Positions 6,446 through 31,334 of a stretch of 64,000 nt of DNA are shown here, one piece after another. Under the pieces are notes generated by a model. That model was not told the DNA's origin, did no database searches, and saw only the letters and a list, made by a program, of their open reading frames with translations. The DNA is from an uncultured Roseibium sp. (lineage in GTDB: Bacteria; Pseudomonadota; Alphaproteobacteria; Rhizobiales; Stappiaceae), in contig NZ_CANLVF010000004.1 of the NCBI RefSeq assembly GCF_947494555.1, positions 558,001 through 622,000 on the forward strand, given 5' to 3'. The number at the start of each line of letters is the position of its first letter. Position 1 is the stretch's first letter. The position numbers and the translations under genes are program-made.

Positions 6446-6456
6446 GTGACAGTGGG

Positions 6457-7368: not shown

Positions 7369-7477
7369 GAGGTTCGCTCCTGATAGGGAATTAAATTGAA
7401 AGCTGAGCATCGGTGCCGTGACGGCCTCGGCAATCATCGCCAGCATCGGCGACGGACATCAGTTCAGCAATAGGTGA

Positions 7478-7725
7478 GAATTTGCAACTTGGTTGGCACT
7501 GACGCCCGCAAACAAGTCTAGCGGTGGCAGAGAGAAACTGGGACGGATTGCGAAGATCGGCAACCAGTACCTCAGGCAACTTCTGGTCGTTGGAATGACG
7601 TCACTGGCACGACAAACCCGATCGCATCCAGAGCGCGCCAGCAAATGACTCACTTCTCTTCTGGAACGCAAACCTGCTCGCGTTGCTTCCGTTGCAATAG
7701 CCAACAAAACCGCAGGATCGTCTGA
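7478..7725 (+). pseudogene. IS110-family transposase remnant
   Basis: The plus strand reads EFATWLALTPANKSSGG, then REKLGRIAKIGNQYLRQLLVVG, which is the C-terminal IS110/IS116 transposase core. An in-frame TGA at 7646-7648 follows, after which the same frame continues as LTSLLERKPARVASVAIANKTA before the reading frame is lost. The upstream DEDD catalytic half is absent. It is a dead fragment of an insertion sequence, next to the duplicated hydrolase. Confidence 0.82.
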
Positions 7726-8086
7726 GAAGTTCTCACCCGAAACCATTCTTGCACTCCACACAACGCTTGAGCGAAAAAGGGACATTGAGTCAGCAAGACC
7801 CGCGAAATGATGGTGCATAAGTCCGCCGCCAAAATCAGTACTCCCCGCCGAATGGCCCTGGCATCATGGTCCGCAAAGCTGTTAGGAACCAGGATTGCGG
7901 AACCCATCAGGGCCAGCGGTCAAACCGCGCGAACAGGCCGGACACATGACTGCTTCTTACAAATCCACAAATCTGATCGAAAATGTCTTGCTATGCAGGA
8001 GCCATCCACACAAGTCATTCGCTGCGAGTACGACGAATGACCGAAACGGAACCGGATGTTGTTTTTGCCGTCGTTGAGGACGAAGC
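7726..8086. other. Probable IS-derived tail, no supported gene
   Basis: Sequence after the transposase remnant and before the next reading frame. Short frames on both strands lack ribosome sites and family features. Part of this stretch may be the rest of the decayed insertion sequence, but no terminal inverted repeat was found. Confidence 0.35.
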
Positions 8087-8353
8087 TCACGTATCCAGAG
8101 ACGGTACGTCTCCGAGGCGGATGATGAACTCAGGCTCAGTATAGTCACCAAGTTCGATATCGACTTCAATTGAAAATGCGTCGATTCCGGCATAAGAACC
8201 GCCGTCAAACATCCTCCGCGCACGAGCTTCTGCTTCGGCCGAAGTCTTGCATTCAATCGCAGATGCCTTGATAAGCACCGACTGCTTAGCCGACCCTTTG
8301 CCACGTTCTAAGTACCGGTATGCCTGACATACGAAGTGTAGACTAACGGTCAT
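8087..8353 (-). CDS. Small hypothetical protein
   Basis: The ATG at 8353 gives an 88-residue protein beginning MTVSLHFVCQAYRYLERGKG and ending GDYTEPEFIIRLGDVPSLDT. The longer frame to 8455 adds sequence with poor coding character. The composition is compatible with a small soluble alpha/beta protein. No family recognised and no catalytic motif. It stands alone next to IS debris, so it could be a real accessory gene or a chance frame. Confidence 0.4.
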   Translation of the reverse strand: MTVSLHFVCQAYRYLERGKGSAKQSVLIKASAIECKTSAEAEARARRMFDGGSYAGIDAFSIEVDIELGDYTEPEFIIRLGDVPSLDT

Positions 8354-8731
8354 GCTACGATAGTCCCCGGTGTTGTACGGACAGAGAATTGTGCGCGCCC
8401 CGCCACTGGACAGGTACACCCCCACTGACGGCAATGGGACTATGTCCGGGTGCAACCCGTTTTAACCAGGAATGTGTCTGTCCCGAATACACGGAACCCA
8501 TTGGTCTATTTGCCCTTCTTTTGCCCGAGGACCGGCAACTCCCTACCTTTGTTAGTAACCGCTGTTGCTGGAGTTTTTTCTATGATCTTCTTCGGCTTTC
8601 TATTCTCACGATTTCCTCGTCTATTGTTGCCTTTGGACATCTGTTTCCCTTTCTGATAAACGGGTGTGCTCGTTTGTTAGGCGGCTGGGTTATGCGCAAG
8701 AGAGCGGAAACAGGTCGATTCCCCGTGAGGA
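8354..8731. other. Gap without a supported gene
   Basis: Plus-strand frames here (for example 8389-8775) have atypical, Cys- and Phe-rich translations and no ribosome site. No repeat or hairpin was recognised. Confidence 0.4.
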
Positions 8732-8977
8732 TCAATCGGACCGTGGCCACCTTACGGAGTTTTCTCCCGCAATGATCTGTTTGATCAGCTTCGAGACCGC
8801 TAGGTGCATTTCCTTGTCGGCTTCAGGGCTGGCCGCATTTTCGTGCGTTGCTGCTGCATCGTGTAAGATGCCCAGGATTTCGTACCCGGGCAGAACTTCG
8901 TGTTCGGTCAGTGCCAGCAAAAGCGCTTCGCAGATCGTGAGCGCTGCCATTCCGGAATAGTCTTTCTGATCAGACAT
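8732..8977 (-). CDS. Small conserved hypothetical protein
   Basis: The ATG at 8977 gives an 81-residue protein beginning MSDQKDYSGMAALTICEALLL and containing GILHDAAATHENAAS, a soluble, helix-rich small protein of a type common in Rhizobiales genomes and usually annotated as hypothetical. The longer frame would start at 8995. It is divergent from the Crp/Fnr regulator, so it may be under its control. No function can be assigned. Confidence 0.6.
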   Translation of the reverse strand: MSDQKDYSGMAALTICEALLLALTEHEVLPGYEILGILHDAAATHENAASPEADKEMHLAVSKLIKQIIAGENSVRWPRSD

Positions 8978-9128
8978 CTTGGCTACCACTTTCATGAACT
9001 AGAGCCCGAGCTTAGGTGCCAGTCCAGTTAACTTCACCATAATGACAGAAAATCAGTATGCTAGACTGATCTAAAGCAGTCTTGGCTCAGACATTTCGGA
9101 TAACGGATTATTGCCTGAGGGAACGCCT

Positions 9129-9863
9129 TTGAACCTTATCGAAAATAGTCCGTTCGCCCGCAAACTTTCCAACTTCGTTGTCCTGACAGCGAGCGAGCTC
9201 AGTGCATTGCAAAATCTGCACAAACGTCGCCGTATCTTCCTTGCTGGACGTGACCTTGTCCAACAGGGACAGTCGGATCAGGCAGCCTACATTCTTTCAG
9301 AAGGTTGGGTCTGCTCGTACAAAGTCCAATCTGACGGAACACGCCAAATTGTCGATTTCCAGATCCCGGGCGACTTTCTGGGATTGCGTAGCGTACTCCT
9401 TCGCGCTTCGGATCACAGCTTCGAACCGATCACCGATATTCAGGCGGTTGAAGTTCAGACTGGCGATCTTCTGGAAACGTTTGCAAATTCCCCTCGACTG
9501 GCGACTGCGGTTTTATGGGCCGCGTCGAGAGACGAAGCTATGGTGGTCGAACATCTCGTAAACCTCGGACGGCGCGACGCGGATAGGCGCATGGCACATT
9601 TTCTGCTCGAACTTGGCGCGAGGTTGGCTCTGGTCGGCATAGGTAGCCAGACGGGCTATGACTGTCCGCTGACACAGTATCACCTCGCCGATGCACTGGG
9701 GCTGAGCGCAGTGCACGTCAACCGTGTCTTGCGGCAACTGCGTGAAAACGGGCTTATCACATTTCGAAGCGGCAAGGTTACGTTCGATGATCGTAATCGT
9801 CTGGTCGAATTTTCAGGGTTCGACCCTGAATATCTTGACCAAGCTGGACCATTGCTAAAGTAA
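9129..9863 (+). CDS. Crp/Fnr family transcriptional regulator
   Basis: A cyclic-nucleotide-binding-like beta barrel (about residues 20-140; ILSEGWVCSYKVQSDGTRQIVDFQIPGDFLG) is followed by a winged HTH (YDCPLTQYHLADALGLSAVHVNRVLRQLRENGLI). The N-terminal Cys cluster of oxygen-sensing FNR is absent, so this is not a classical FNR. The reading frame extends to a TTG at 9111, but the TTG at 9129 has an AGGGA site at good spacing and is preferred (about 244 residues). In alphaproteobacteria this subgroup often controls stress-type genes like those found downstream here. Target sites were not identified. Confidence 0.85.
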   Translation: MNLIENSPFARKLSNFVVLTASELSALQNLHKRRRIFLAGRDLVQQGQSDQAAYILSEGWVCSYKVQSDGTRQIVDFQIPGDFLGLRSVLLRASDHSFEPITDIQAVEVQTGDLLETFANSPRLATAVLWAASRDEAMVVEHLVNLGRRDADRRMAHFLLELGARLALVGIGSQTGYDCPLTQYHLADALGLSAVHVNRVLRQLRENGLITFRSGKVTFDDRNRLVEFSGFDPEYLDQAGPLLK

Positions 9864-10347
9864 AACTCGCGTTTGCGGAGTCTTAGTTTCAGATAGGCCA
9901 AATTCATTTGTAAGAAGTCCGAAAGAAAAACGCTCTTAATAAGCCGCTATTCTTTTGCGCTCGTTCGTAATCATTGTTGGCCTTAGCATCGGTCTTAATA
10001 CAAGAAAATACGTTCGCATCTCTCCAATTTTGGTCGCGTCGGCACGGAAAAGACACCAACGACTAACCTCGATCAGGATGTGCCTGCAAGGCTCCATGTA
10101 GGATCACAAAACCGGTTGGCTTCTAGGTCAATTTCTTGAAACACGTTTTAATCCTTCAAAAAAGACAGGAAAGCGGCGTGAATTTCCACAAACGCGCTCG
10201 CGATGCTGTCCCCGAAAATAACTATCTCAAAACGGCCAAGCTGCGTTCAATTGGGTCGAACCTGATTCCGGTTATCTGCCTGATGAGACTTGCGCAATTA
10301 GGCTTTGAACAATCCGGCCATATGCTTGCAAAAGGAGCGCTCAGGCC
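9864..10347. other. Intergenic stretch without a supported gene
   Basis: 484 bases between the Crp/Fnr gene and the DUF2188-like gene. A plus-strand frame from 10136 runs out of frame through the next gene and is judged a shadow. The stretch is AT-richer than its neighbours and probably holds the promoter of the 10348-11699 genes. Confidence 0.4.
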
Positions 10348-10833
10348 ATGGAGACAAAAACGAATAAAGATGGACCCAAACCAGATTCCTCAGATCTTGA
10401 GAGGCGGGTTCTTGCGCATGAGAGAATTCTCCAATCCGTCATTGCGTATATGTCCCGCTCTGAGCCCCGGTTTGTTGAGCACCTCAAGGCACGTTTCGTC
10501 GATACCATGTCGATGGCGCGCCGGGAACAGGATTACAGAGGCGTTGATGACTATGCTGAAGAATTCATACACGCGGCTATGCAACAGGGAGACATTTGCA
10601 CGGGCCTTAAACTAAAGAATATGAAACCGGAAAAAGCGTCTAAGCCTTCATTGGCAAAACTGGCGCCTGAAACCATGCAAGTGCCTCCCGAGAATATTGG
10701 ACCGGAACGTGTTCGGGTCCATGAAAGAAACGGAATTTGGGAGGTCCGTGTAGATGGCGCTTTTCTCGGCAACTATCATAAATCGGAACATGCCCGGGCG
10801 GCCGCCGCGGTGGCCAGATTCACGCTCAAATGA
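10348..10833 (+). CDS. Hypothetical protein with DUF2188-like C-terminus
   Basis: A 161-residue protein preceded by an AGGAG site. The N-terminal part is helical (DLERRVLAHERILQSVIAYMSRSEPRFVEHL). The C-terminal about 40 residues (VRVHERNGIWEVRVDGAFLG, then a YHKSEHARAAAAVA segment) resemble the DUF2188 repeat found in small stress-associated proteins. Its stop overlaps the ATG of the transglutaminase-like gene (ATGA), so the two are translationally coupled. Molecular function unknown. Confidence 0.65.
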   Translation: METKTNKDGPKPDSSDLERRVLAHERILQSVIAYMSRSEPRFVEHLKARFVDTMSMARREQDYRGVDDYAEEFIHAAMQQGDICTGLKLKNMKPEKASKPSLAKLAPETMQVPPENIGPERVRVHERNGIWEVRVDGAFLGNYHKSEHARAAAAVARFTLK

Positions 10834-11699
10834 GCAAAAACTTTCCTTCTCAAGCCCGTTTGGGATGTTTCGCCAAGTCAGGACTAAGTTACCTCCGTAT
10901 CAGTTTGGGTTGTCGCTTTGATTTCGAATTTCCGAAATCGACACCGATGATTGCGATGCTCAACGTTGATGCAACACGTTATTGCGACCTCGAGCAACTG
11001 GATTATTTGACGACAACTCCTTGCGTGCCGATCGAGAGCTATCTGGACGCTTTCGGGAATTGGTGTTCCAGGCTGACAGCACCTGCCGGCGCTTTTACAA
11101 TGGCGACGCATGGCATCTTTTTTGACACCGGCAAGACGGACCCGGCTTTTCCTGCCGCCTATCAGCATGCCGTCCAGGATTTACCAGCTGAATCCCTCGT
11201 GTATCTGGTGGGGAGCCGCTATTGCGATACTGATGTGCTTTCAGAGGAAGCCTGGCGTTTGTTCGGAGAAACAAAGACAGGCTGGGCCAGGGTTCAAGCG
11301 ATCTGTGACTATGTGCATCAGCAGGTGACCTTCGGCTATGAGCATGCACGAGCAACCCGAACGGCGTCCGAAACCCTGACCGAAGGGCGGGGTGTTTGCC
11401 GTGACTTCACCCACCTTGCGATCAGCTTCTGTCGATGCATGAACATACCGGCCCGCTATTGCACGGGATATCTGAGCGATATCGGCGAGTCGGAACCGCA
11501 TCCCCCGTGTGATTTCGCAGCCTGGATGGAAGTCTTCCTGGCAAACCGATGGTGGATCTTCGATCCGTGCAACAACCAACGCCGCATCGGAAGGTTTCTG
11601 ATTGGCCACGGTCGGGATGCTGCCGATGTCCCGCATACACAGACTTTTGGCGAAAATACTTTAAGAAGTTTTGAAGTTTGGAGCGAGATTTCTAGCTGA
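10830..11699 (+). CDS. Transglutaminase-like protein
   Basis: A 289-residue protein with an N-terminal transglutaminase-associated beta domain and a papain-like core: the nucleophile Cys190 is in GRGVCRDFTHLA, followed by FCRCMNIPARYCTGYL. The third triad member is probably Asp245 in WWIFDPCN. The usual His of the D-[YF]-H-A-W motif is Ala230 here (CDFAAWMEVF). From memory of this subfamily, Ser or Ala at this place is not unique, so the protein may be inactive, use another base or act as a binding protein. It overlaps the previous gene by ATGA. Predicted cytoplasmic; no signal peptide seen. Confidence 0.82.
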   Translation: MSKNFPSQARLGCFAKSGLSYLRISLGCRFDFEFPKSTPMIAMLNVDATRYCDLEQLDYLTTTPCVPIESYLDAFGNWCSRLTAPAGAFTMATHGIFFDTGKTDPAFPAAYQHAVQDLPAESLVYLVGSRYCDTDVLSEEAWRLFGETKTGWARVQAICDYVHQQVTFGYEHARATRTASETLTEGRGVCRDFTHLAISFCRCMNIPARYCTGYLSDIGESEPHPPCDFAAWMEVFLANRWWIFDPCNNQRRIGRFLIGHGRDAADVPHTQTFGENTLRSFEVWSEISS

Positions 11700-11837
11700 A
11701 ACTAACTTAGATCAGCTCACAACCTGCCGAGATCATCTAAATTCTTTGAAACAGTTTCACCTCCGAATGAATTCATCGAAAAAACCTATTGTGGATCTTG
11801 ATTGAAGCACAATCAACGGAGAACGGTGGACGATACC

Positions 11838-12098
11838 ATGAACACCCGATCGACCAAATCGACAGTGAAGTTCTTCCACCCGTTCACTTTAAGGGAACAA
11901 TCAGAAGTGCTGCCTGCCGGAGACTATGAAATCGTTGTCGAAGAAGAACTTCTCAGGGACACGAGTTTCGTCGGATACCGAAAGACGGCAACGTATCTGA
12001 TCGTCGCCGGCAACGGCAGGACTGAGATGCGCCAGATCTCCGGAAAGGACTTGGAAACGATGCTCAACCGCGACAAAGCCGCCAACGATGACAAATAA
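11838..12098 (+). CDS. Small hypothetical protein
   Basis: The ATG at 11838 gives an 86-residue protein (MNTRSTKSTVKFFHPFTL, then PAGDYEIVVEEELL). The frame extends to a TTG at 11802 but the ATG is preferred, with a GGTGG purine site before it. It is soluble and predicted mostly beta in its first half. Homologues of this look occur in Rhizobiales beside stress genes, but no function is known to me. It is followed after 38 nt by the next small gene and is probably co-transcribed. Confidence 0.55.
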   Translation: MNTRSTKSTVKFFHPFTLREQSEVLPAGDYEIVVEEELLRDTSFVGYRKTATYLIVAGNGRTEMRQISGKDLETMLNRDKAANDDK

Positions 12099-12136
12099 AA
12101 CAGCAAGGCTGTGCCTGCTCCACCGGAGGACTTGAA

Positions 12137-12490
12137 ATGAACATTCCCGAATGGCTGAAACCTGTCACTCTTGGAATCGTGATTGGCGCAGTTGCCGTGA
12201 GCACGTTGGGATTTTCCTGGGGTGGCTGGTTAACAGGTGGAAACGCGACACAGATGGCGAACAGGCTGTCACAAGACAAAGTAATTGCAGCGCTCGTGCC
12301 GGTTTGCGTCAACCTATCCCGCACCGACGCAGAACGCGCCACGAAGCTGGCGAAGATTCGTAAAACCTCTGCATACCAGCGAAGGAATGCGCTCATGGAA
12401 ACTGGATGGGCGACGGTTCCTGGTTCGGATAGCTCCGACCGAGATTTGGCGCAAGCCTGCCTGGCCGCACTTGAACTCGACAAATCGTGA
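12137..12490 (+). CDS. Small membrane-anchored hypothetical protein
   Basis: A 117-residue protein with one N-terminal membrane helix (LGIVIGAVAVSTLGFSWGGWL) and a soluble C-terminal part containing two Cys (VPVCVNLS, AQACLAAL) and the conserved-looking stretch ALMETGWATVPGS. The ribosome site GGAGG is well placed. The type is widespread in Rhizobiales as a hypothetical protein. Its stop codon lies exactly on the border of the duplicated segment that starts at 12486. Confidence 0.65.
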   Translation: MNIPEWLKPVTLGIVIGAVAVSTLGFSWGGWLTGGNATQMANRLSQDKVIAALVPVCVNLSRTDAERATKLAKIRKTSAYQRRNALMETGWATVPGSDSSDRDLAQACLAALELDKS

Positions 12491-13515
12491 CCAGGAGCTT
12501 GGGACGCTGTGGCACGTCAGCGAACTGGGCCAACGATCACAACGTCCCGTGACAGTGGGTCAGAACTGAGCTTGCTTCTCACCGATGCGGGGCAATTCAC
12601 GCAAGTTTCGGGTTGAGGCATTTGCGAACCGGGTAGCCGGGCGAACCTGCTTTGCAGTTGTGCCGAGTTCGCCAAGGCTCTCCAGCCATGACAAGAATGC
12701 GCCCGGTTCCCTGGCGGGCCAGATGTGATCTGCGTATGGGATTCTATGACCTGAAATGTTTGTCACGCTGGCGGCGGATTCGCTCGGAATTGTCCAAACC
12801 TTTCCAGATTTTCCGCCCCATGCCACATGAACCGGAACGGATAAATTCGCCAAGTCCTGCACTGTTACGGAAGCGAAGCGATGCTTTGAATTCAGGAGAG
12901 GGATCAGGGTGTGTGCGTTTTCTACGCAGATCCTGCGCAATTCGGGTGGCAGTTTCTTGAAGGTCCCCGGCCCGCTAACCGCATCAATGAATGCGCTCAG
13001 AACTCCAAACCCGTTTCCTGAAGAGGCCGCCGCGGTTACAGGCGAAAACGTCTCGCGCATACTGGTCTGATGCGCCTCAATTGAGGAGCTGTCGCTGACG
13101 AGACTTGTCGAACTTGGTTCATAGGCAACGACGCGCGAGACAAGGTCCGGCCTGTCGACGGTCAGACGCAAGGCGACATTTGCGCCATACGACCAGCCGA
13201 TAATGAAGACCGGGCCGCACTCAAGGCTTTCGATGATTGCAGCAAGATCTTCCGCGTGGGTTGCCTCTCCGAACTCTGCAGAATTTGCGGGCCAGTCTGT
13301 CGGTCCGAACCAACGCAGGGTCGGGGCGATGCACCGGTAATGCTGCGCGAGATGCGGAACATGAGGCGTCCAGATCCGATGATCGCAGGCCGCACCATGA
13401 ACGAACAAAATGGGGGCACCTTCCCCGAGATCCAAACATGGAAACATGCCGGTGTGTGTGTGAACAACCATGAGGTCCGCTCCTGAAAGGGTGTTAAATT
13501 GAAAGCCGAGCGTCG
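12486..13515. repeat. Duplicated segment, copy 2 (hydrolase gene and flanks)
   Basis: The partner of 6384-7412. It begins on the stop codon of the preceding small gene and ends within the 3' end of the complete methyltransferase gene, which suggests this is the parental locus. Confidence 0.85.
12560..13471 (-). CDS. Alpha/beta hydrolase, copy 2
   Basis: A 303-residue alpha/beta hydrolase with the HG oxyanion motif (LFVHGAACDHRIW), the nucleophile elbow GWSYGAN (Ser94) and a C-terminal His in YADHIWPAREP. The start at 13471 has an AGGAG site and is conserved in copy 1. It follows the methyltransferase gene on the same strand by 22 nt, so the two probably form an operon. Relatives include esterases, lactonases and haloperoxidase-like enzymes; the substrate is not known. 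Confidence 0.87.
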   Translation of the reverse strand: MVVHTHTGMFPCLDLGEGAPILFVHGAACDHRIWTPHVPHLAQHYRCIAPTLRWFGPTDWPANSAEFGEATHAEDLAAIIESLECGPVFIIGWSYGANVALRLTVDRPDLVSRVVAYEPSSTSLVSDSSSIEAHQTSMRETFSPVTAAASSGNGFGVLSAFIDAVSGPGTFKKLPPELRRICVENAHTLIPLLNSKHRFASVTVQDLANLSVPVHVAWGGKSGKVWTIPSESAASVTNISGHRIPYADHIWPAREPGAFLSWLESLGELGTTAKQVRPATRFANASTRNLRELPRIGEKQAQF

Positions 13516-14168
13516 GGGCCGGCCAGGCTGCGATCCTGGGGCTCGTTCTGTTTCAAGAGCCTCGCATTTCCGACTGTTTGCCATGCGATGGGCAGCGGCA
13601 CGCCCTTGAGCCGGGAGGTATTCGCATCGACGCGAAAATTCGCTCCGCGCAACGCGGTGGCAGCGCGACGATCGAGCTGGCAGCCTCCCAGCAGAAATGA
13701 CCAGGGCCGGCTTACAATTTTCTGAAGTCTTGCAATCCAGGGCGTTGGAGCGCTGACATGTTCGCAAAACAGAACTTTGCCACCGGGCCGGAGCACACGT
13801 CGCACTTCACGAAGAACCGCATCAACGTCCTGAACCGTGCAAAGCGTGTAAGTCAGGACCACCGTGTCGACGGATCCATCCTCAAGCGGGATGTCCTCTC
13901 CGAAAACCTGAAGGAATTCGCAGGCGATGTCTGAGCGGCCGGCCACTTTTCGCGCCATGGCGAGGCTGCTCCCGCAGGGGTCCAGGCCGATGATCCTGGT
14001 AACCTGGGCTGCATCGTAGAGCGGTAGGTTCAGGCCCGTTCCAACGCCAAGATCAAGCACCACGCCTTTCGCCTTGGGTACGATGCGTCTGCGTTGTTCT
14101 TCAAACATTTGCCCGCCGCAACCGCAATCGACAATCCTGGGGAGAATATGCTTACTGTAAAAAGACAC
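13494..14168 (-). CDS. Class I SAM-dependent methyltransferase
   Basis: The SAM-binding motif I is VVLDLGVGTGLNLPLY, followed by a motif II-like VDTVVLTYTLCTVQDV and a post-motif LRPGGKVLFCEHV. Relatives are small-molecule methyltransferases of the UbiE/phosphatidylethanolamine type. The reading frame extends to 14462, but the first 98 residues are Arg/Pro-rich and unlike a protein domain. The GTG at 14168 with GAAGGAAA upstream gives a normal 224-residue enzyme and leaves a divergent intergenic region to the gene at 14342. Its last codons were carried along in the duplication at 7391-7412. Confidence 0.8.
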   Translation of the reverse strand: MSFYSKHILPRIVDCGCGGQMFEEQRRRIVPKAKGVVLDLGVGTGLNLPLYDAAQVTRIIGLDPCGSSLAMARKVAGRSDIACEFLQVFGEDIPLEDGSVDTVVLTYTLCTVQDVDAVLREVRRVLRPGGKVLFCEHVSAPTPWIARLQKIVSRPWSFLLGGCQLDRRAATALRGANFRVDANTSRLKGVPLPIAWQTVGNARLLKQNEPQDRSLAGPDARLSI

Positions 14169-14341
14169 GGTCTGGTTTCCTTCGTTGATTTGACGGGGAA
14201 ACCATGTCCGGGTTTGACGTTTTGCACTTGGCGGGCTTCTGGAGAAACGATGAAGAAACGCTGGATATTGAGGGTGCCAAGGCGACCCGTTCGGTTCACC
14301 CGGCGCACGCCTGACCGGAACCCGTACGAGGCACGGACACC

Positions 14342-15559
14342 GTGATCTATAAATTTTCAGATTGCATTCTGGATCTCGGCCGCCGCACGCTTTCCCGCGA
14401 TGGGGGACAACAGCATATCGAACCGCAGGTCTTCGATCTGCTGGCATTTCTTGTCCAGTCATCGGGACGAACCATCACCAAGGAAGACCTTGTGACGGCC
14501 ATATGGGGCGGCCGCGCAATTTCCGATGATGCCATTACCAGCCGCATCAAATCCGCAAGAAAAGCCATTGGGGACGACGGCCGCGCGCAGCGTCTTATCC
14601 GCACGCTTCCAAGGGTCGGCTATCGTTTTGACGGTTCTGTTGAGGCCATCGCGCGGGCCGAAACCCCTGAACAGGCTACAATTTCGGCAACGTCCTAGGC
14701 CGGCCTTCAACGGGATGATCCGCAAACCGGACGTCTGGCACCAACAGATGAAACAGCGGCTCCCGAAATAGGGTTCGTTACCGATCGCAAGGGCCGGTCC
14801 ATCGGCTACGCCGCTCACGGCCAGGGGCCGCTTGTGATCCTTCCGCCGTTTTGGGTCACAGCCTCCGACCTGTGGCACAACCACCCGGAGATCCAGGAGT
14901 TTTACGTCACGCTTGGAAAAGGCGTGCGCATACTTCGTTACGATCGTCCGGGGTCGGGCCTTAGTCGGGACGTGACGCCAAACGAGACGCTGGAAGACGA
15001 GGTTGCGCTGCTTGAAGACATGGTCGCCGCGTTCAGTTCGGAGCCGGTCATGCTCTTCGCCATTTCCGCTGCCGGTGCCGTTTCAATCCGGTATGCCGTC
15101 CGTTATCCGGAAAAGGTCGGGCGCATCTGTTTTTATGGTGCCTATGGCTCCGGCAAGGATCTCGCGCCGCCGGAGTCCCAGACCATGCTTCTGGGGTTGA
15201 TCCGTCAGCACTGGGGCGTGGGGTCCCGGGCACTTGCGGATATCTTTGTTCCCTCGGCGGACGCCGACGCAAGGCGACGTTTTGCGGAGCAACAGCGCGC
15301 CGCGGCCGACCCGGAGCAGGCTGCTTCAATGCTTCAACTGAGTTGGACAGTTGACGCCAGGGCGGATGCAGACAAGCTTCGTGTTCCGACGCTTGTCCTG
15401 CATCGTCAGGATGACCGTGCTGTGCCGGTCGAACATGGGCAATGGTTGGCGCGTACAATTCCAGGCGCTCGGTTGCAAATACTGCCCGGTGATGCACATG
15501 CGCCCTGGTTCGGGCCATTGGATATTGCAACCAAAGCCAATGCATTCTTTAGCGAATAG
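14342..15559 (+). pseudogene. Winged-helix/alpha-beta hydrolase fusion interrupted by an in-frame TAG
   Basis: One frame runs from a GTG at 14342 to 15559 with a single stop, TAG at 14696-14698. Before it are 118 residues of an OmpR-type winged helix (MIYKFSDCILDLGRRTL, RLIRTLPRVGYRF). After it the same frame reads AGLQRDDPQTGRLAP, then GFVTDRKGRSIGYAAHGQGP, and an alpha/beta hydrolase (elbow FAISAAG, Asp in LHRQDDRAVP, His in GDAHAPWFG). Proteins with this exact fusion exist in alphaproteobacteria, about 400 residues long; restored length here is 405. The hydrolase part could start separately at the GTG at 14834, but that start lies inside the hydrolase domain. The stop may be a recent nonsense mutation, a sequencing error or a read-through site. 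Confidence 0.8.
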
Positions 15560-15679
15560 CCTTCAAACCGGTCCGCCTCTCTTTCGCAGAATCCCGATTG
15601 TCAAAAGCTGTGACCGGCTGCCAAGGTGCGCGCTGCCGCCGTTGCGCCCCATGCGCGAGAACCCTATGCTCCGGGCGCC

Positions 15680-16336
15680 ATGACAAGACAAGATTCAGAT
15701 CCGCCAGCGCTCTATTTTGCGCCCGATACGTGCGCGCTTGCCTCGTTGATTGCCTGCTACGATGCCGGCGTTGAGCCGGAGGTGATCCATGTCGATTTTT
15801 TGTCGGCTCAGCAAAAGTCCGATGCGTATCTGTCTCTCAATCCGAAAGCGCGCGTGCCGGCCTTGCAAGTTGGCGGAACCGTTCTGACGGAGACCCCTGC
15901 GATCCTTGCTTACCTGTCGCAGGCGCATCCCGATGCCGGTCTCGCGCCTTCTGACCCGGTCGGGTTCGCGCAAGTGCAATCCTTCAATGCGTATCTTTGC
16001 TCGACATTGCATGTTGCACATGCCCATCGAATGCGAGGATACCGCTGGGTCGATGGCGAAGAGCATGAAGAAGCCATGCGCCGCAAGGTGCCGGAAGCGA
16101 TGACCGACTGCTACGACTATATTGAACTGCATGTTTTCGAAGGGCCGTTCGTATTCGGTGAAACCTATACGATCTGTGACCCGTATCTGTTTACGATCGC
16201 TCAGTGGATGAAGTCGGATGGTGTTGATCCGGACCGGTTCCCCAAACTCTCTGCACATCAGGAACTGATGGTGAAACGGCCCAATGTTGAGCGGGCGCTC
16301 ACGGTCGAACGCGGATTTATGGCTTCGCAGTCATGA
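15680..16336 (+). CDS. Glutathione S-transferase family protein
   Basis: The ATG at 15680 gives a 218-residue protein with a thioredoxin-like N-terminal domain (ALYFAPDTCALASLIACYDAG; the cis-Pro region in KARVPALQVGG; TETPAILAYLS is the glutathione gamma-glutamyl-binding SNAIL-like motif) and an all-helical C-terminal domain. Beta-class GSTs in bacteria conjugate or reduce electrophiles, or bind ligands. The frame extends upstream to 15626 but that part lacks fold character. It stands alone; the substrate is unknown. Confidence 0.85.
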   Translation: MTRQDSDPPALYFAPDTCALASLIACYDAGVEPEVIHVDFLSAQQKSDAYLSLNPKARVPALQVGGTVLTETPAILAYLSQAHPDAGLAPSDPVGFAQVQSFNAYLCSTLHVAHAHRMRGYRWVDGEEHEEAMRRKVPEAMTDCYDYIELHVFEGPFVFGETYTICDPYLFTIAQWMKSDGVDPDRFPKLSAHQELMVKRPNVERALTVERGFMASQS

Positions 16337-16405
16337 TTGAACCGCAAAATTGCTGCCGGAAATGGCCGGTCTCAGTGCAACGCAGACACACACCAAGCTT
16401 CAATC

Positions 16406-16583
16406 AAGCGGCAGATTTCAGCCTGAATATCGCTAATCGACAGACTGCGGTTTGCTACATCTCTTGCTGGGATTGAACATCTCGAACAGGTCCAACCGAC
16501 ATTACGCTTTTGAGTGTGCAATCCGATTCACTTGGGCAGAGTGATCAATGACCCAGAGGCACGTTAAAAAGGGTCGCGCTGCC
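16406..16583. repeat. Left imperfect direct repeat flanking the DarTG island
   Basis: About 178 bp, roughly four-fifths identical to 18755-18933 in the same orientation. Its right end reads as a decayed version of the last codons of the GntR gene (ATLFNVP). It lies in the 437-base gap after the GST gene, which contains nothing else recognisable. Confidence 0.75.
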
Positions 16584-16773
16584 AGCCAGTCTCAACTCAG
16601 CTTCGCGCTCTACCTATGCATCCAGGCAAGAGATCGCGTTGAAAAGCCAAATGTAAGCAAATTGTTGCGGTGACACGCTTAGTGACAGGATTGCGCGCGC
16701 AATTCGGACATAGAGCGGTTTTCAGTTTACCCCCGAAATCAGCCAATTGAAACGATATTGGGTTGTCTTGCCA

Positions 16774-17814
16774 TTACGCAGCGGTGAGCCAGCCTTTGGA
16801 TTTGAGCGTTTCAAATGCGATGGCAACCTGCCTCTCGGTGAATACCTTCTTGCGCTCATTCCATCCGTAAACTCTAGCGAGCACCTTCTCCGAAGTGTCG
16901 GCACCCTCTCGGGTCGCCACCCAATGGACCGTCGCAAGTAATTCCAGCCCGTAAGGTGTTTCGAAACCATCCACAAGATCAGCAACCTTGTTGAAGTTGA
17001 CGTGAGTCGCCTCCTCATGCGCCAACGCTGACTCTGCCTCTAGGATCGCACCGGGCACGATGGTCAGTTCCTTATCCGGCTGATCACCACCGTCCTGGTA
17101 ACCCGCAACGAAATGGCCCTCTACCTTGTTGAGAACATGCGAGAGGTTTGTAGCATAGGGACCGTAGTGATGCTTAGTGTATTTGAGTTTCAGCGGCTGC
17201 CCTGCCTCCTGCATGAAATACATTAGCTTCTGAACCTCGATGAGGGTCACGAACGGGTCCATCAGCCCTTGCAAATAGCGATTCATAAGCACGACAAGCG
17301 CAGCGCGGCCCGGTGTCATGTTTGGTACGTCACGGGATTTGACCACCTCAGGCGCGCCCTTGGGCTCGTAGATCAATACGTCGAGTTCGGGCAGGTCGCG
17401 TAACGCAGCTTCGATGCGCGGATGAACGTCGTTCCAGTCCAACCCGCCAAGGCCTGCACCGAGCGGCGGAATGGCGACGGACTTGATTCCACGCTCGTTG
17501 ATTTCCCGTGCCAACGCAGCCAGCCCGCTATCAATGTCTGCTATTCGGCTCTTGCCTTTCCAATGCCTCTTCGTAGGGAAGTTGATGATGTAGCGGGGGT
17601 TAGTAAAGGTGCCCGTATCATAAACGAACATCTTGCCCGGCTGCACCTCACCCTCCTCGCAGGCGAGCGCATATGCGCGGAAGTTTGCCGGAAACGCTTT
17701 CTTAAACTGGAGCGCGATACCGCGGCCCATGACTCCGACGCAATTCACCGTATTGACGATTGCCTCAGCATCCGCCTTCAAGATGTCGCCCGTTCTAATT
17801 TCTATTTGTGCCAT
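16774..17814 (-). CDS. darG: DarG-type antitoxin, macrodomain DNA ADP-ribosylglycohydrolase
   Basis: A 346-residue protein. Residues 1-150 form a macrodomain (IRTGDILKADAEAIVNTVNCVGVMGRGIALQF; later AIPPLGAGLGGLDW). Residues about 165-346 match the DarG-specific C-terminal domain, including LIEVQKLMYFMQEAGQPLKL and ELLATVHWVATREGA. In the DarTG system DarG removes ADP-ribose from thymidine in DNA and also binds DarT. The length is full and no key segment is missing. It lies 12 nt downstream of darT in the same operon. Confidence 0.93.
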   Translation of the reverse strand: MAQIEIRTGDILKADAEAIVNTVNCVGVMGRGIALQFKKAFPANFRAYALACEEGEVQPGKMFVYDTGTFTNPRYIINFPTKRHWKGKSRIADIDSGLAALAREINERGIKSVAIPPLGAGLGGLDWNDVHPRIEAALRDLPELDVLIYEPKGAPEVVKSRDVPNMTPGRAALVVLMNRYLQGLMDPFVTLIEVQKLMYFMQEAGQPLKLKYTKHHYGPYATNLSHVLNKVEGHFVAGYQDGGDQPDKELTIVPGAILEAESALAHEEATHVNFNKVADLVDGFETPYGLELLATVHWVATREGADTSEKVLARVYGWNERKKVFTERQVAIAFETLKSKGWLTAA

Positions 17815-17826
17815 GGTTATTCGCTC

Positions 17827-18474
17827 TTAGTAATACCACGCTGGCAGTACGTTGACCGTTGGACGATGCGCAGCACCTGCGATGGCCTGTCCGGCCTGCA
17901 GACCTGTCGCCTGATTGTAGGCACCAATCTGTTCGATGAGGTGCCTAGGAAAATCGCGATCGAGCAGGAACTCTGCCTGCTTTTGCTCCTTGGTCGGAGA
18001 ACCGGACCATCGGTTTGTTTGCACTGCGTTCCAGTTGATCTCGCTGAGTTGACCGAGATCGCACCGATCTTCGAAATAGTAGGAGCCTGCGTTAGACAGC
18101 GTAAATGCCCAACGCCGCTGGTTCGCGTGCGCCCAAGTGACGACTGCGTTCAGGTCAGCAACCAGATGCACGATCGGGTCCTGTCCGCCTTGATAGGCGA
18201 GTTCCGGGTTTCGCCGATAAATCAGGTAGAGCATTACTGAGCGGGGGCAGAAATAGAACGGAACGCACTGACCGACATAAAGCCCTGGATGGCTGTCGAG
18301 CGTCAACTCGTTCATCCGTCTCGCTTTAATGTTGTTCATGCCGATGACCGTTCCCTTGGGCGGATGCTGCGCCATAATTGCGTCGGAAAACAAGAAACCG
18401 TCCGCTGCAATCGCCGCCAGCTTGTCGACGTGGACGATATGATAGATTTTAGGTTTGGCAGGTGCAGGCATCAT
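17827..18474 (-). CDS. darT: DarT-type toxin, DNA thymidine ADP-ribosyltransferase
   Basis: A 215-residue DUF4433/DarT protein. Visible family features are the NAD-contact region IYHIVHVDKLAAIAADGFLF, the GMNNIKARRMNEL segment with Arg52/Arg53, FYFCPRSVMLYLI, and the catalytic Glu168 in KEQKQAEFLLDRDFP. DarT modifies thymidine in single-stranded DNA using NAD+, blocking replication; DarTG modules act in phage defence and plasmid or island maintenance. Two ATGs in a row are available (18474, 18471). The first overlaps the stop of a short upstream coding remnant (TGATG). All motifs are intact, so it is probably functional. Confidence 0.93.
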   Translation of the reverse strand: MMPAPAKPKIYHIVHVDKLAAIAADGFLFSDAIMAQHPPKGTVIGMNNIKARRMNELTLDSHPGLYVGQCVPFYFCPRSVMLYLIYRRNPELAYQGGQDPIVHLVADLNAVVTWAHANQRRWAFTLSNAGSYYFEDRCDLGQLSEINWNAVQTNRWSGSPTKEQKQAEFLLDRDFPRHLIEQIGAYNQATGLQAGQAIAGAAHRPTVNVLPAWYY

Positions 18475-18554
18475 CAGGCGGGTTCGTCCGAATCAATTAG
18501 CTCATCAATATCCACCAAAACGTCAGCGTTGGTCAAATGGCTTACCCAACCAGC
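18474..18554 (-). pseudogene. Short coding remnant coupled to darT
   Basis: After a TAG the minus strand reads AGWVSHLTNADVLVDIDEL, then IDSDEPA and a stop that shares its last base with the darT start codon. The acidic, coding-like tail has no start codon with a ribosome site and looks like the 3' end of a gene that once preceded darT. Alternatively it is a short leader frame coupling translation to darT. Confidence 0.35.
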
Positions 18555-18754
18555 CTAGAAAGCCTCAGACCAATCCTTTGCCAAATTACGCACATTGAGT
18601 TGGCCCTTAATCTTAGTTCACATCTCCGATGTCTGCTTTCAGTTAATAATATTTGATAGCAGACATTCCGCTCTCGGCCCCCAATTCGGACATTCGTGGA
18701 AATCGCGGCATCGGGCAATTTGAGCTCAAAAGAGTCATGCGCCACAGTAAGTAC
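18555..18754. other. Noncoding right end of the DarTG island
   Basis: No gene recognised. The stretch is AT-richer than its surroundings and probably contains the darTG promoter. The 12-mer CAATTCGGACAT occurs here and also near the left end of the island (about 16700). Confidence 0.4.
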
Positions 18755-18933
18755 TAGCGACAGATTTGCGCCTGAACATCGCCATTCGACAGACTGTGGT
18801 TTGCTTCATCTTTTTACCGGGATCGAACCCCTCGAACAGGTCCAACCGGCTTTGTGCTTTTGAGTGTGCAGTCCGGTTCACGTGAGCAGTGCGACTACTG
18901 GCCCATAGGCACGTTGAACAGGGTCGCGCCTTC
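18755..18933. repeat. Right imperfect direct repeat flanking the DarTG island
   Basis: The partner of 16406-16583. It includes the real 3' end of the GntR gene (encoding GATLFNVPMGQ and stop) plus about 140 bp downstream of it. Confidence 0.75.
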
Positions 18934-19599
18934 CTGATCCACGTTCTTTGTGGTGTGTTCACGCAGCAGTCGGCATGCGGCTTCCATGTCGCCGTCAATC
19001 GCAAGGTTTTTCAGCTGCACGTGTTCTTCCGCGCTCTTCAAAAGCCAGTCGCGGTGATTTTTGTGAGCGATCGAATAGGCCATGAGCCGGTAGCGCCTGG
19101 TCAGATCATAAAGATTGGCAACCGTGTCCATCAGGCGCGGCGAGTTGCAGTTGCTGATCAGTGTCTTGTGAAACTGGAAATTCCGCTCGTCCCATTCGAT
19201 GACAAATCCCTTGGGGTCATCGATCATGTCTTCTTCTACTTCGCTGAGCATGTGATGTGCGGCCACGACATTGGCACGCCACTCCGGCGTGGAGTTTGCC
19301 GCCGACCATTGCAGGCCCAAACATTCCAGCTCGGCGCGAAGGCGTGTCGCATCGCTCAGATCCTCGAAGGAGGAGTCCAGGACGCGGTATCCCTTGTTGC
19401 CTTCGGATGAAACGTACCCTTCGCCGGCCAGCAGAGCCAAGGCTTCACGAATGGAGGGATGGGATACCTTGTGTTCGCGTTTCAGTGCTTCGATATTCAG
19501 CCGCGCGCCCGGCAACAGGGTTCCGAGCGCGATATCCCGGCGTAATTTGGCCGCCAGTTCATTGACGACTGAGCTTGAAGAGCGCGTTTTCAAAACCAT
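18895..19599 (-). CDS. GntR family regulator, FadR/FCD subfamily
   Basis: A 234-residue regulator. The N-terminal winged helix is VVNELAAKLRRDIALGTLLPGARL and SHPSIREALALLAGEGYV; the C-terminal FCD helical domain has His residues placed for metal and ligand binding (NFQFHKTLI, AEEHVQLKN). FCD-type GntR proteins usually sense a carboxylate and control nearby catabolic genes. It lies downstream of the SDR gene (29-nt gap, same strand) and opposite the TAXI-TRAP transporter, so it probably regulates uptake and oxidation of one organic acid or sugar derivative. Confidence 0.9.
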   Translation of the reverse strand: MVLKTRSSSSVVNELAAKLRRDIALGTLLPGARLNIEALKREHKVSHPSIREALALLAGEGYVSSEGNKGYRVLDSSFEDLSDATRLRAELECLGLQWSAANSTPEWRANVVAAHHMLSEVEEDMIDDPKGFVIEWDERNFQFHKTLISNCNSPRLMDTVANLYDLTRRYRLMAYSIAHKNHRDWLLKSAEEHVQLKNLAIDGDMEAACRLLREHTTKNVDQEGATLFNVPMGQ

Positions 19600-19628
19600 T
19601 GTCCCGTAAAGACCACCTGCTTCAAAGC

Positions 19629-20378
19629 CTACGAGTATGATCGCAGATTGCTGACGCCACCATCAACGGCAATTGTCTGTCCGCTGATAAAGCTCGCCTG
19701 ATCTGACACCAGAAGGGTTGCGACTTGCGCAACTTCTTCCACTTCTGCCACCCGTCCGGCGGGCGTTTCCTTGCACCAGTATCCGCGCGATCTCGGATCG
19801 GGGTTCATTCCAGCATTGACCGCACCTGATGCCAGCACATTCACCCTGATTTTGTATTGAGATAACTCAACCGCCATCGCCCTTGCCAGCGCGCCCAGGG
19901 CAGCTTTCGACATCGCATAGGCGCCGCGATCCGGTATGCCGATTTGTCCATGGATGGACGAAATGAAGACAATCCTGCCGCCGTCTTCCAGCATCAGATT
20001 GACGACTTCCTGGGCTATGTTGAAAGCGCCAAACAGGTTGACCTTCAAATGATCTTCGATATCTTGATTTTCCAGGTTCAGAAAGGCGCAAGGGGAAAGA
20101 TATCCTGCTGAAAAGATTAGCGCTTGGGGCGTGCCCGTTTTTTTCAATCCTTCGCTGATGGCAGTGGAAATGGACTCTGGTCTTGTCAGATCCACGTACT
20201 GATAAGCACAGCTTTGATCTGCAGGTTCTTTAAGATCCAAGACGAGAACGCGGTTGTTCTCCTTCAGCAGTCTGTCGACAATTGCCGATCCGATACCACC
20301 GGCACCGCCGACCACATAAATCGTCTTGGCAGCAGTTTTTTCGCCCATTTCCGAAATCCGATCCATCAACGATCCCAA
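19629..20378 (-). CDS. Short-chain dehydrogenase/reductase
   Basis: A 249-residue SDR with the cofactor-binding motif GGAGGIGS (residues 24-31), a Ser141 region (FISSIHG) and the catalytic Tyr154-Lys158 pair in YAMSK. The C-terminus FISGQTIAVDGGVSN is typical of classical SDRs. It oxidises or reduces an alcohol/ketone pair using NAD(P). The neighbouring GntR regulator and divergent TRAP transporter suggest it acts on the imported compound. Confidence 0.9.
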   Translation of the reverse strand: MGSLMDRISEMGEKTAAKTIYVVGGAGGIGSAIVDRLLKENNRVLVLDLKEPADQSCAYQYVDLTRPESISTAISEGLKKTGTPQALIFSAGYLSPCAFLNLENQDIEDHLKVNLFGAFNIAQEVVNLMLEDGGRIVFISSIHGQIGIPDRGAYAMSKAALGALARAMAVELSQYKIRVNVLASGAVNAGMNPDPRSRGYWCKETPAGRVAEVEEVAQVATLLVSDQASFISGQTIAVDGGVSNLRSYS

Positions 20379-20394
20379 TTTTCACTTTTCAGAC

Positions 20395-20411
20395 AAATCA
20401 TATTATGATTT
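20395..20411. promoter_or_regulatory. Candidate GntR operator in the SDR/TRAP divergent region
   Basis: A 17-bp palindrome with perfect 8-nt arms AAATCATA / TATGATTT around one central base, inside the 68-nt gap between the SDR and TAXI gene starts. It is flanked by GACAA / TTGTC half-sites. Its position fits binding by the linked GntR regulator. Confidence 0.55.
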
Positions 20412-20446
20412 ATTAAATTGTCATATATAATCGAGAGCAAAAAATC

Positions 20447-21451
20447 ATGCTGAAAAAGTTGAAATCTGCAGTGCTCGCATTTGCGGCCTGCGCAGTGCTC
20501 GCCACGCCGGCGCTCGCGCAAGAGATTAAATTCTTCACAATCGGCACGGGAGGAACGGCCTTCACCTACTATCCGGTCGGGGGAGTGATCGCGAATGCCA
20601 TTTCCAAGCCGCCCGGATCCCGTGAATGCGGCGAGGGTGGCAGCTGCGGCGTTGATGGCCTGATCGCTTCCGCCGTGTCTTCACGCGGTTCGGTCGACAA
20701 CGTCAATGCCATCACCTCCGGTCTGCGCAATTCCGGTTTCGCCCAATCCGATGTTGCCTACTGGGCCTACACCGGCACAGGCACGATGGAAGGCCAGGAT
20801 CCGGCAACCGATTTGCGCACGATCGCTGCCCTCTTCGAAGAGCACATCCATCTGGTGACTTTGGAAGACAGCGGGATCAACTCCGTTGCAGACCTGAAAG
20901 GCAAACGCGTTTCGGTCGATGAGCCCGGCTCAGGCACATATGTCGACGCGGGTCTGATCCTGGAAGCCAACGGATTGTCGCTGTCCGACATTCAGGAAGA
21001 AAACCTGAAAGGCGCTGCGGCAACAGAGGCCTTGCGGAACGGCAAGGTCGACGCTCTCTTCATCGTCGCGGGATATCCGACCGGCGCTCTGGTCGAACTG
21101 GCGTCCGCTGCGGACATGAAACTCGTGCCGATTGACGGAGACGGTGCAAAGGCACTTACCGACAAGTACGGTTTCTTCGCTGCCTCCGATATTCCGGCCG
21201 AGACCTATGAAGGTGTGGACGGCGTGACAACCGTTGCCGTTGGTGCACAGTGGTACACATCCGCGAAGGAAGATGACGACCTGATCTACGAGATCACCAA
21301 GGCATTGTGGAACAAGGAAAGCCGCAAGCTGCTTGATGTCGGTCATGCCAAAGGCAAGACGATCACACCGGATACGGCGTTGAACGGTATCGGCGTTCCA
21401 CTCCATCCAGGTGCTGAGCGGTTCTACAAAGAAGCCGGCCCGATCAAATAA
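20447..21451 (+). CDS. TAXI-family TRAP solute-binding protein
   Basis: A 334-residue periplasmic protein with a clear signal peptide (residues 1-24, ending TPALAQ). The mature start EIKFFTIGTGGTAFTYYPVGGVIANAI is the TAXI-family signature. TAXI proteins capture organic acids such as glutamate or 2-oxoglutarate for a TRAP permease; the substrate here is unknown. It is followed after 81 nt by the fused permease gene. A GAGAG site precedes the ATG. Confidence 0.92.
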   Translation: MLKKLKSAVLAFAACAVLATPALAQEIKFFTIGTGGTAFTYYPVGGVIANAISKPPGSRECGEGGSCGVDGLIASAVSSRGSVDNVNAITSGLRNSGFAQSDVAYWAYTGTGTMEGQDPATDLRTIAALFEEHIHLVTLEDSGINSVADLKGKRVSVDEPGSGTYVDAGLILEANGLSLSDIQEENLKGAAATEALRNGKVDALFIVAGYPTGALVELASAADMKLVPIDGDGAKALTDKYGFFAASDIPAETYEGVDGVTTVAVGAQWYTSAKEDDDLIYEITKALWNKESRKLLDVGHAKGKTITPDTALNGIGVPLHPGAERFYKEAGPIK

Positions 21452-21532
21452 CAGACTTGAGCTATCAAAATGGCCCGGATGTCATGGTGCTTCCAAGACG
21501 TCCGGGCCAATGCGTGAGGGGACAAAGGGCGC

Positions 21533-23557
21533 ATGGCGGATCATTCCAGGGCGGAGCTGACGGAAGCTCAGCTGCTTGAGCTAGAACGAAAATACGATTC
21601 TGAAAGCGCCTTTCGCCCGATGGGCAAGAAGATGGGCTTCATTGTCGCGTCCATTCTGGTTGCGATGTCTGTCTACCACTTCTCGGTCGCGGGTTTCCTG
21701 CTTGTTCGCGAACTTCTTCAGTTTGGAATTCACCTTGCCTTTGTGCTTGGGCTGACGTTCCTCCTCTTTTCGTGGCGGAAGGATCTCTCGGTCACGTCGC
21801 CGCCCAAAGGCTGGATGTATTTTGACGGGGTCAACATCCTCGATATCGTGCTGGCAACACTTGCTGTCGCCGCCGCCCTCTATCTGCCCTTGCTGCCGCC
21901 AGCCGAAGCTGCTGCAAGAGCCGGTAACCCCAGTCTGACCGACACGTTCATGGGATCGGTCGTGCTGCTCTTTACGTTGGAAGCCGCGCGCCGTTCGATC
22001 GGATACACGCTGCCGCTGATTGCGGGCATTTTCGTGCTCTACGCCCTGTTCGGTCAATCGGCCCCGGGGCTTTTGCGCCATGGCGGCGTGCCGTGGGCCG
22101 GTTTCATCGACGGGATTTACGGCACGCAGGGCATCTATGGCATCGCAATCGGGGCCATGGCGAAATATGTCTTCCTGTTCATCCTGTTTGGCGTCCTGGC
22201 CTCCCGCATCGGTCTTGGCCAGCTGTTCATCGATCTGGCGACCATCGCCGCCGGGCGCTACTCCGGCGGCCCGGCGAAAGTCGCGATCTGCGCCTCCGCG
22301 TTCATGGGGTCCATTTCCGGTTCTTCGATTGCCAATACTGTCACAACAGGCGCCCTCACCATTCCGGCCATGAAGAAAGTGGGATATCCGCCCCATTTTG
22401 CCGGTGCCACTGAGGCGACGTCCTCCACCGGCGGGCAAATCACGCCGCCCGTCATGGGCGCGGCAGCCTTTATCATGGTCGACTTTCTCGGGATCCCCCT
22501 GCGCGACGTTCTGGCCGCGGCCCTGTTCCCGGCCTTCCTGCATTATTTCGGTATTTTCGTCATGGTTCACCTGGAGGCGAAGAAGCTGGGCCTGCGCGGT
22601 CTGTCCGCCGAGGAAATGCCGAAGCTGGCCGCGGTCCTGCGCGTCAACTGGCTGGCGGCTGCACCGCTTATCATTCTTGTCTACATGATCCTGTCAGGCC
22701 GAACGCCGGACTATGCCGCCGTTTATGCGATCATTGCCTGCGTCGTTGTCGGCTTCATCAAGCCGCGAGAGCGCATGACATTGCACGGTCTATGGGACGC
22801 CCTTGCCGCCGGTGCCCGCAGCACCATTGCCATCGGTTCGGCGGCAGCCTGCGTCGGTATCATCGTCGGTGTCATCACGCTGACGGGAACAGGCTTTCGG
22901 GTGGGGGCCATCGTCATTCAAACGGCGAATGATTTTGCGGCGGTCGTTTCCAGCCTGTGGCCATTCAGCTTTTTCGATCTGCAGCAATGGGCCCTGTTTT
23001 TCTCGCTGGTGCTCGTTGCGCTCGCCTGTATCGTCATGGGGGCAGGTGTGCCGACAACGGCGACCTATATCATTCTGGTCTCGGTAACCGCCGGAGCGTT
23101 CCAGATCCTGAATGTCGAACCGCTGGTCGCACACTTCTTCGTATTTTACTACGGCGTTCTGGCAGACATCACACCCCCGGTCGCGCTTGCAGCCTATGCT
23201 GCCGCGGGGATAGCCGGTTCGAACCCCTTCAAGACCGGAAATACCGCCTTCCGCCTGGGCATCGCAAAGGCGCTGGTTCCGTTTGTCTTTGTCTATTCAC
23301 CTGCCTTGCTGCTTGTTGCGGACGGATTTACCTGGTGGGCATTCACATACACCCTGGCTGGAGCAATGCTGGGTATTGCGTCGCTCGGCATTGCATTTTC
23401 CGGGTTTCTCTTTGTGCCACTCCATCAGATCGAGCGGTGGTATGTAGCCGCTGTTGCGCTTCTTTTCATTGCGCCAGGCGTCATCACCCTATCCATCGGG
23501 CTCGCGTTGCTTTTGCCGATCCTGCTGCTTCAACTGCATCGCTTGAAACAGGCGTGA
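21533..23557 (+). CDS. TRAP transporter permease, fused DctQ-DctM type
   Basis: A 674-residue polytopic membrane protein in which the small (DctQ-like) and large (DctM-like) TRAP subunits are fused, the normal partner of TAXI binding proteins. Typical conserved stretches are GSISGSSIANTVTTGALTIP, ATSSTGGQITPPVMGAAAFI and GAGVPTTATYIILV. It uses an ion gradient to import the TAXI-bound solute. The GTG/ATG region is preceded by an AAAGGG site. Confidence 0.93.
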   Translation: MADHSRAELTEAQLLELERKYDSESAFRPMGKKMGFIVASILVAMSVYHFSVAGFLLVRELLQFGIHLAFVLGLTFLLFSWRKDLSVTSPPKGWMYFDGVNILDIVLATLAVAAALYLPLLPPAEAAARAGNPSLTDTFMGSVVLLFTLEAARRSIGYTLPLIAGIFVLYALFGQSAPGLLRHGGVPWAGFIDGIYGTQGIYGIAIGAMAKYVFLFILFGVLASRIGLGQLFIDLATIAAGRYSGGPAKVAICASAFMGSISGSSIANTVTTGALTIPAMKKVGYPPHFAGATEATSSTGGQITPPVMGAAAFIMVDFLGIPLRDVLAAALFPAFLHYFGIFVMVHLEAKKLGLRGLSAEEMPKLAAVLRVNWLAAAPLIILVYMILSGRTPDYAAVYAIIACVVVGFIKPRERMTLHGLWDALAAGARSTIAIGSAAACVGIIVGVITLTGTGFRVGAIVIQTANDFAAVVSSLWPFSFFDLQQWALFFSLVLVALACIVMGAGVPTTATYIILVSVTAGAFQILNVEPLVAHFFVFYYGVLADITPPVALAAYAAAGIAGSNPFKTGNTAFRLGIAKALVPFVFVYSPALLLVADGFTWWAFTYTLAGAMLGIASLGIAFSGFLFVPLHQIERWYVAAVALLFIAPGVITLSIGLALLLPILLLQLHRLKQA

Positions 23558-23664
23558 GGTCTTGTTTTGTCGGCCGTAGGGCACCGTTTGCAGTCAAGTC
23601 CGTACAGGAACATAAGTCCGGTTCACCGTTAAGGTTCCCGGCACCTGTGTTGCAAGCAGCTTAA

Positions 23665-29510: not shown

Positions 29511-31334
<1,824 letters not shown>

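Follow-up and report, generated by a model that had tools for sequence, protein, structure and literature searches.

A complete darT-darG pair lies in the window (the whole 64,000-nt stretch analysed here, G000:C4:558001-622000) between two long direct repeats of the 3' end of a neighbouring GntR-family gene. With moderate confidence, we explain this arrangement by insertion of the DarTG module, with long target duplication, at the 3' end of the GntR gene. A comparable footprint is found at DarTG loci beside other host genes, and one of these loci has an uninserted counterpart with a single copy of the repeat.

The darT-darG pair and its flanking repeats

The elements of the island and its host gene are listed below.

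17827-18474, minus strand: darT, DNA ADP-ribosyltransferase toxin, 215 aa (Pfam, PADLOC, solved relative 7omv)
16774-17814, minus strand: darG, macro-domain antitoxin, 346 aa (Pfam Macro, PADLOC, solved relative 5m3i)
18895-19599, minus strand: GntR/FCD regulator of 234 aa (GntR and FCD domains), the host gene, with a duplicated 3' end
18756-18934, minus strand: right, gene-proximal repeat, comprising the GntR gene end and downstream DNA (alignment, profile)
16407-16583, minus strand: left, distal repeat, a decayed, 5'-truncated copy of the GntR gene end with downstream DNA (alignment, profile)
16584-18755, minus strand: inter-repeat unit of about 2.2 kb, in which only darT and darG are recognised as genes and the other open frames overlap them
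16700-16711, plus strand: 12-nt motif CAATTCGGACAT left of darG, an exact copy of that at 18682-18693
18682-18693, plus strand: 12-nt motif CAATTCGGACAT upstream of darT, an exact copy of that at 16700-16711

The darTG pair (16774-18474) is located directly downstream of the GntR/FCD gene on the same strand; both of its reading frames are uninterrupted, and darG follows darT after a gap of 12 nt. DarT matches Pfam PF14487 over the full model (8.5e-57) and the PADLOC DarT model (1.6e-61), while DarG matches its PADLOC model (1.8e-138) at positions 2-328 of 329. Residue E168 of DarT, within KQAEFL, aligns with KQAAFL of 7omv, at a position which we take to be the mutated catalytic Glu160. In this family, DNA ADP-ribosylation by DarT stops phage replication, and DarG reverses the modification and neutralises the toxin. 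The pair of the window would, by family membership, act as an anti-phage toxin-antitoxin system. It shares with the known DarTG phage-defence system the adjacent arrangement of the genes and a nearly full-length match to both models; the genes themselves are ordinary, whereas the insertion footprint alone is of note. In enteropathogenic Escherichia coli, DarTG2 is reported to lie inside a Type I restriction-modification locus (PMC12255303).

Alignment of 16407-16579 with 18756-18929 gives 81.6 per cent identity over 174 nt with one indel, and a sequence profile made from the tail copies extends the repeats to 16583 and 18934. The right repeat contains the 12 final GntR codons and the stop codon, followed by about 140 nt of downstream DNA; in the left repeat, about 37 decayed coding nucleotides precede the former stop codon and about 140 nt follow it. 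These results bear out the original prediction of an intact darT-darG pair set between direct repeats of about 178 bp, the right one carrying the real GntR 3' end and the left one a decayed copy. The alignment that it had proposed, of 16406-16583 with 18755-18933, confirms a repeat that continues beyond the GntR codons through the downstream DNA, and the suggested comparison of GC content revealed no contrast in the base composition of the island. When pseudo-islands were slid along the window, 2 of 151 had a repeat, and both of these were the GntR-tail repeat itself. The 18 per cent divergence between the two copies indicates either that the event is old or that the tail was already different on arrival. 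The exact copies of CAATTCGGACAT bracket darTG in the same orientation, inward of the long repeats.

Origin of the pair

Among 45 genomes of the genus, DarT has one other match, at 50 per cent identity, and DarG is 91 per cent identical to the DarG of Sphingomonas kyeonggiensis. The rarity of DarT in the genus, together with this close relative of DarG in Sphingomonas, points to acquisition of darTG by horizontal transfer. The similarity extends to the DNA level.

16776-18539, minus strand: DNA-level likeness (83 per cent, alignment) to the darTG locus of Sphingomonas kyeonggiensis

The similar stretch runs from 65 nt upstream of darT to 1 nt beyond the final darG codon. In 36 pairings of the window and eight related loci, the similarity breaks off no more than 10 nt from the darG end in 25 and 61-265 nt earlier in 8; the remaining 3, among L062, L064 and L065, continue into shared flanks. 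These limits hint that the interval 16776-18539 is perhaps the transferred compact core, although a local alignment is in any case prone to stop where coding constraint is lost.

No near relative of the pair was found on a mobile element among plasmids, phages and viral contigs. DarT has two relatives in viral contigs (61-63 per cent); for DarG, there are 81 plasmid records, the best at 71 per cent, and 263 phage records, two of which reach at least 80 per cent query coverage.

Flanking repeats at other DarTG loci

The survey was based on 101 sequences (66 first loci, 34 fetched later and the window), among which DarG was found in 100, darT adjoined it in 87 and at least 500 nt of flank was present on both sides in 77. 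Repeats were counted if direct, at least 40 nt long and within 1.5 kb on each side of the pair. Such a repeat flanks 11 of the 77 DarTG loci, the window included, as compared with none of 105 pseudo-islands of equal size (Fisher, 5e-5); the window supplied no controls, and each of the other loci could supply as many as two, so that the controls are not fully independent.

Three of the loci were discounted. The repeat of L085 sits at both contig ends and is likely an assembly overlap, that of L087 is weak (45 nt, 78 per cent, more than 1 kb away), and L112 duplicates the structure of L110, with repeats at the same coordinates (138 nt at 95 per cent). After these exclusions the count is 8 of 74 (Fisher, 7e-4).

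By the order in which the loci were seen, repeats occur at 7 of the 44 examined first, 2 of the remaining 8 first loci and 1 of the 24 usable loci of the later set (L130-L163), in addition to the window; the corresponding controls are 0 of 73, 0 of 11 and 0 of 21. In this small survey, most of the repeats thus come from the loci that suggested the hypothesis, and the later set by itself does not prove an excess. A first scan, covering 45 of the 66 loci, gave 4 of 43, compared with none among 43 mismatched flank pairs. In an early scan with settings of 1-kb flanks and 50 nt, the contrast was weaker than in the main survey (4 of 45 against 2 of 78 pseudo-islands). Among 28 GntR-family loci used for comparison, one has a repeat (56 nt at 73 per cent).

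The end of a host gene is repeated in five lineages, represented by the window and the following four loci.

L077 (Pleomorphomonas): 42 nt, 98 per cent; end of a sigma-54 regulator gene, abutting darG
L088 (Campylobacterales): 104 nt, 88 per cent; end of an epimerase/dehydratase gene, rfbB-like by our reading
L110 (Gammaproteobacteria): 141 nt, 96 per cent; end of an oligopeptide ABC transporter gene
L143: 235 nt, 94 per cent; 5' end of a macro-domain gene

In all four 3'-end cases (the window, L077, L088 and L110), darTG is codirectional with the host gene. The darG frame of L077 continues through the copied codons of the sigma-54 regulator to the copied stop, and at L110 an extra fragment of the same transporter gene precedes the distal copy. 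L080, L089 and L093 were also retained, but their repeats do not correspond clearly to the end of a gene.

A locus from the family of L143 (L165, genome G288) is uninserted and has a single copy of the repeat. The left flank of L143 (3274-4502) aligns with it at 79 per cent, the right flank with the gene-side copy (6910-8175) at 78 per cent, and the distal copy falls on the same one position of L165 at 77 per cent; the left-flank alignment ends about 190 nt short of the repeat.

Several other features of these loci were recorded. At L088, the gene right after the duplicated tail (7193-8545) has Schlafen/AlbA_2 and RecG-C-terminal-like domains, and its start overlaps the copied stop codon. The DarG of L110 (5998-7362, 454 aa) has an added C-terminal stretch that looks, by eye, like a helix-hairpin-helix domain. 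At L080 in Asticcacaulis (7421-9637), DarTG adjoins a large serine recombinase gene with Resolvase and Recombinase domains, and the repeat is 105 nt long at 77 per cent.

The corresponding site in a sister genome

G024 is a genome of the same genus, and a 19-kb stretch of it was used for comparison with the window. The two align over 18818-23563 at 93 per cent, 29454-32174 at 92 per cent and 3590-6229 at 87 per cent, and the GntR protein is 97 per cent identical to its G024 ortholog; one scan of the genome contigs returned no named orthologs of the GntR gene. Two features to the left of the pair are relevant here.

6230-18817, no strand: accessory stretch, replaced in G024 by a different 5.75 kb, with only the GntR tail copies aligning within it
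15626-16336, plus strand: glutathione S-transferase-like gene, the left neighbour (domain match)

In place of the 12.6 kb of the window, G024 carries an OmpA-family gene, a second GntR 3' end, a gene of 115 aa and a protein of 1114 aa with CHAT, AAA and TPR domains (L035 10847-16277). In our judgement the last resembles a defence gene. The two GntR tails of G024 surround the OmpA-family gene, and no DarT match was found in this genome. With stricter filters, a profile of the four tails run over 45 genomes of the genus identified two copies in G000, two in G024 and none in the other 43.

In the part downstream of the gene, the two copies of the window are 81 per cent alike, whereas all other pairings, including G024's own, are 57-64 per cent alike. 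Over 90 mostly coding nucleotides, the second tail of G024 is 81 per cent identical to its own GntR gene and 74 per cent identical to that of the window. Of 17 informative sites, 10 pair the tails of the window together, 3 pair the tails by position and 4 favour the third arrangement; the pairing of the two window tails was upheld in 1838 of 2000 resamplings. Since the two window tails resemble each other more than either resembles those of G024, and the cargo is different, the duplication in the window is probably separate from that in G024, as far as these 17 sites indicate. The G024 duplication may be the older one, and gene conversion between tail copies is a possible alternative cause of the pairing. 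The sharp drop in identity between G000 and G024 at the gene end was considered as proof of a crossover and rejected, because another intergenic stretch is also just 68 per cent alike.

The expectation that relatives devoid of DarTG should not keep both repeats held in part: G024 is DarT-less and has two GntR tails, but its cargo is different and its tails pair apart from those of the window. No empty site corresponding to the window was found in the genus genomes searched, and nothing in the other 44 of them matches the glutathione S-transferase stretch at the DNA level.

The accessory stretch of the window contains further repeated DNA. A second long direct repeat (6383-7418 and 12486-13521; 1036 nt, 93 per cent) brackets about 5 kb, and each of its copies bears an alpha/beta-hydrolase gene. 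Within the bracketed DNA, 8754-12498 has a relative at 78 per cent on G000:C5, in another part of this genome, and other genomes of the genus contain similar stretches. The segment 7840-8020, which we guess to be an insertion-sequence remnant, is matched in seven or more other genomes of the genus, in one case at a contig end.

Proposed mode of insertion

Under insertion with long target duplication, the resident GntR end and some downstream DNA would be doubled upon entry of darTG. One copy of the tail would stay joined and keep the GntR gene whole, and the other, released from selection, would decay on the far side. The doubling would occur through joining based on homology or break repair rather than through a dedicated recombinase, either by filling in a long staggered break or by a single-crossover entry of DNA already bearing the gene end. 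The surviving insertions would be those that leave the host gene whole. We infer that the arrangement in the window arose as did the other DarTG cases at gene ends.

Long target duplication by restriction-modification genes was reportedly described by Nobusato et al. in Helicobacter pylori in 2000. Insertions of these genes resemble the present ones in being compact selfish or defence units with direct repeats of about 100 bp and no known mobile element linked to them; what sets the present insertions apart is the DarTG cargo, the variety of hosts and the fact that gene ends make up the clearest repeats. Insertion with a long target duplication of about 100 bp is reported for restriction-modification genes in PMC3874152, PMC3031569 and PMC1643837.

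The window has edge repeats of this order (174 nt at 81.6 per cent). A single-copy target in a relative is seen for L143 in L165, whereas for the window the G024 site holds other cargo. One of the original proposals, that the island was inserted at the end of a gene and restored that end, fits the window, and the same footprint recurs beside other host genes; the predicted empty site, with the glutathione S-transferase gene directly followed by the GntR gene, was not found. The window is not the cleanest case, as it has no empty site and the DarT-less G024 has a second tail. A second tail with other cargo is unpredicted by plain long target duplication, and the most serious argument against this explanation in its simplest form is that both species used the same tail.

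This recurrence of the GntR tail in G024 is what keeps weight, for the window, on site-specific integration, in which the GntR 3' end would be an attachment site, the integrase would be lost or remote, and islands would repeatedly bring a replacement tail. Such integration is unlikely in our estimate, even though it readily accommodates the presence of a second GntR tail, with different cargo, in each of two sister species and the lack of other copies across the 45 genus genomes, and even though all four tail copies share a core around AACGTGCC beside a possible hairpin. The exact tail core has no occurrence in viral contigs. Elsewhere in G000, 12 Phage_integrase matches are present; the nearest on the same contig (C4:541221-541772) lies beyond the window edge at about 33 kb from the pair, and G024 carries a similar match at C3:178872-179423. 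The prediction that no integrase is present agrees with the search of the 64,000-nt window, which returned no Phage_integrase match and hence no tyrosine integrase gene at the island edge, and darT and darG take up most of the space between the repeats. Other DarTG pairs share no single site: the gene ends at which they sit are unrelated, and their repeats differ in length. Integrase-bearing islands are known in the 3' ends of protein genes, such as phage 21 and e14 in icd. There, as in the window, an imperfect direct repeat holds the gene 3' end, which is rebuilt upon insertion; in contrast, the window has no Phage_integrase match, and its inter-repeat unit is just 2.2 kb long with no other mobile gene recognised.

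The different cargo of G000 and G024 would also be accounted for by homologous entry of linear or circular DNA bearing a GntR tail and DarTG, or by cassette exchange between ancestral double tails that served as exchange arms, DarTG being placed in one species and the OmpA-family gene in the other. Neither form needs a recombinase, and both accommodate the 18 per cent divergence of the copies. We give these routes about one chance in a handful: the pairing of the window tails with each other (10 sites against 3 and 4; 1838 of 2000) speaks against them unless gene conversion has intervened, and the first joining of darTG to a gene end is left unexplained. Finally, it is very improbable that the events were unrelated, an ordinary local rearrangement doubling the tail and DarTG landing between the copies later: the 1036-nt repeat shows that duplications happen in the accessory stretch, but the excess of repeats at DarTG loci over pseudo-islands and the single-copy counterpart of L143 tie the duplication to the insertion.

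Wider significance

Beyond the window, it is conceivable, though in our view doubtful, that DarTG constitutes a minimal mobile unit, consisting of a short leader and darT-darG, which moves without a recombinase among distant bacteria and copies a gene end of about 40-235 nt as it enters. The literature searched, which was thin in subscription journals, contained no published report of a target-duplication footprint for DarTG. The direct repeats discussed with DarTG in PMC12255303 are promoter repeats. A review ascribes to restriction-modification systems the same apparent mobility as that of toxin-antitoxin systems, and cites long target duplication in doing so (PMC2654758), so the general idea is already in print.

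If the proposal is true, DarTG behaves like restriction-modification genes, and addictive defence modules may share a recombinase-free route of entry, for which breaks or fork stalling caused by the toxin might be the driving force. With a recurrent footprint and one uninserted locus, the spread of small defence modules that lack a recombinase would become countable and testable, and repeat length, orientation and junctions could be scored across thousands of genomes.
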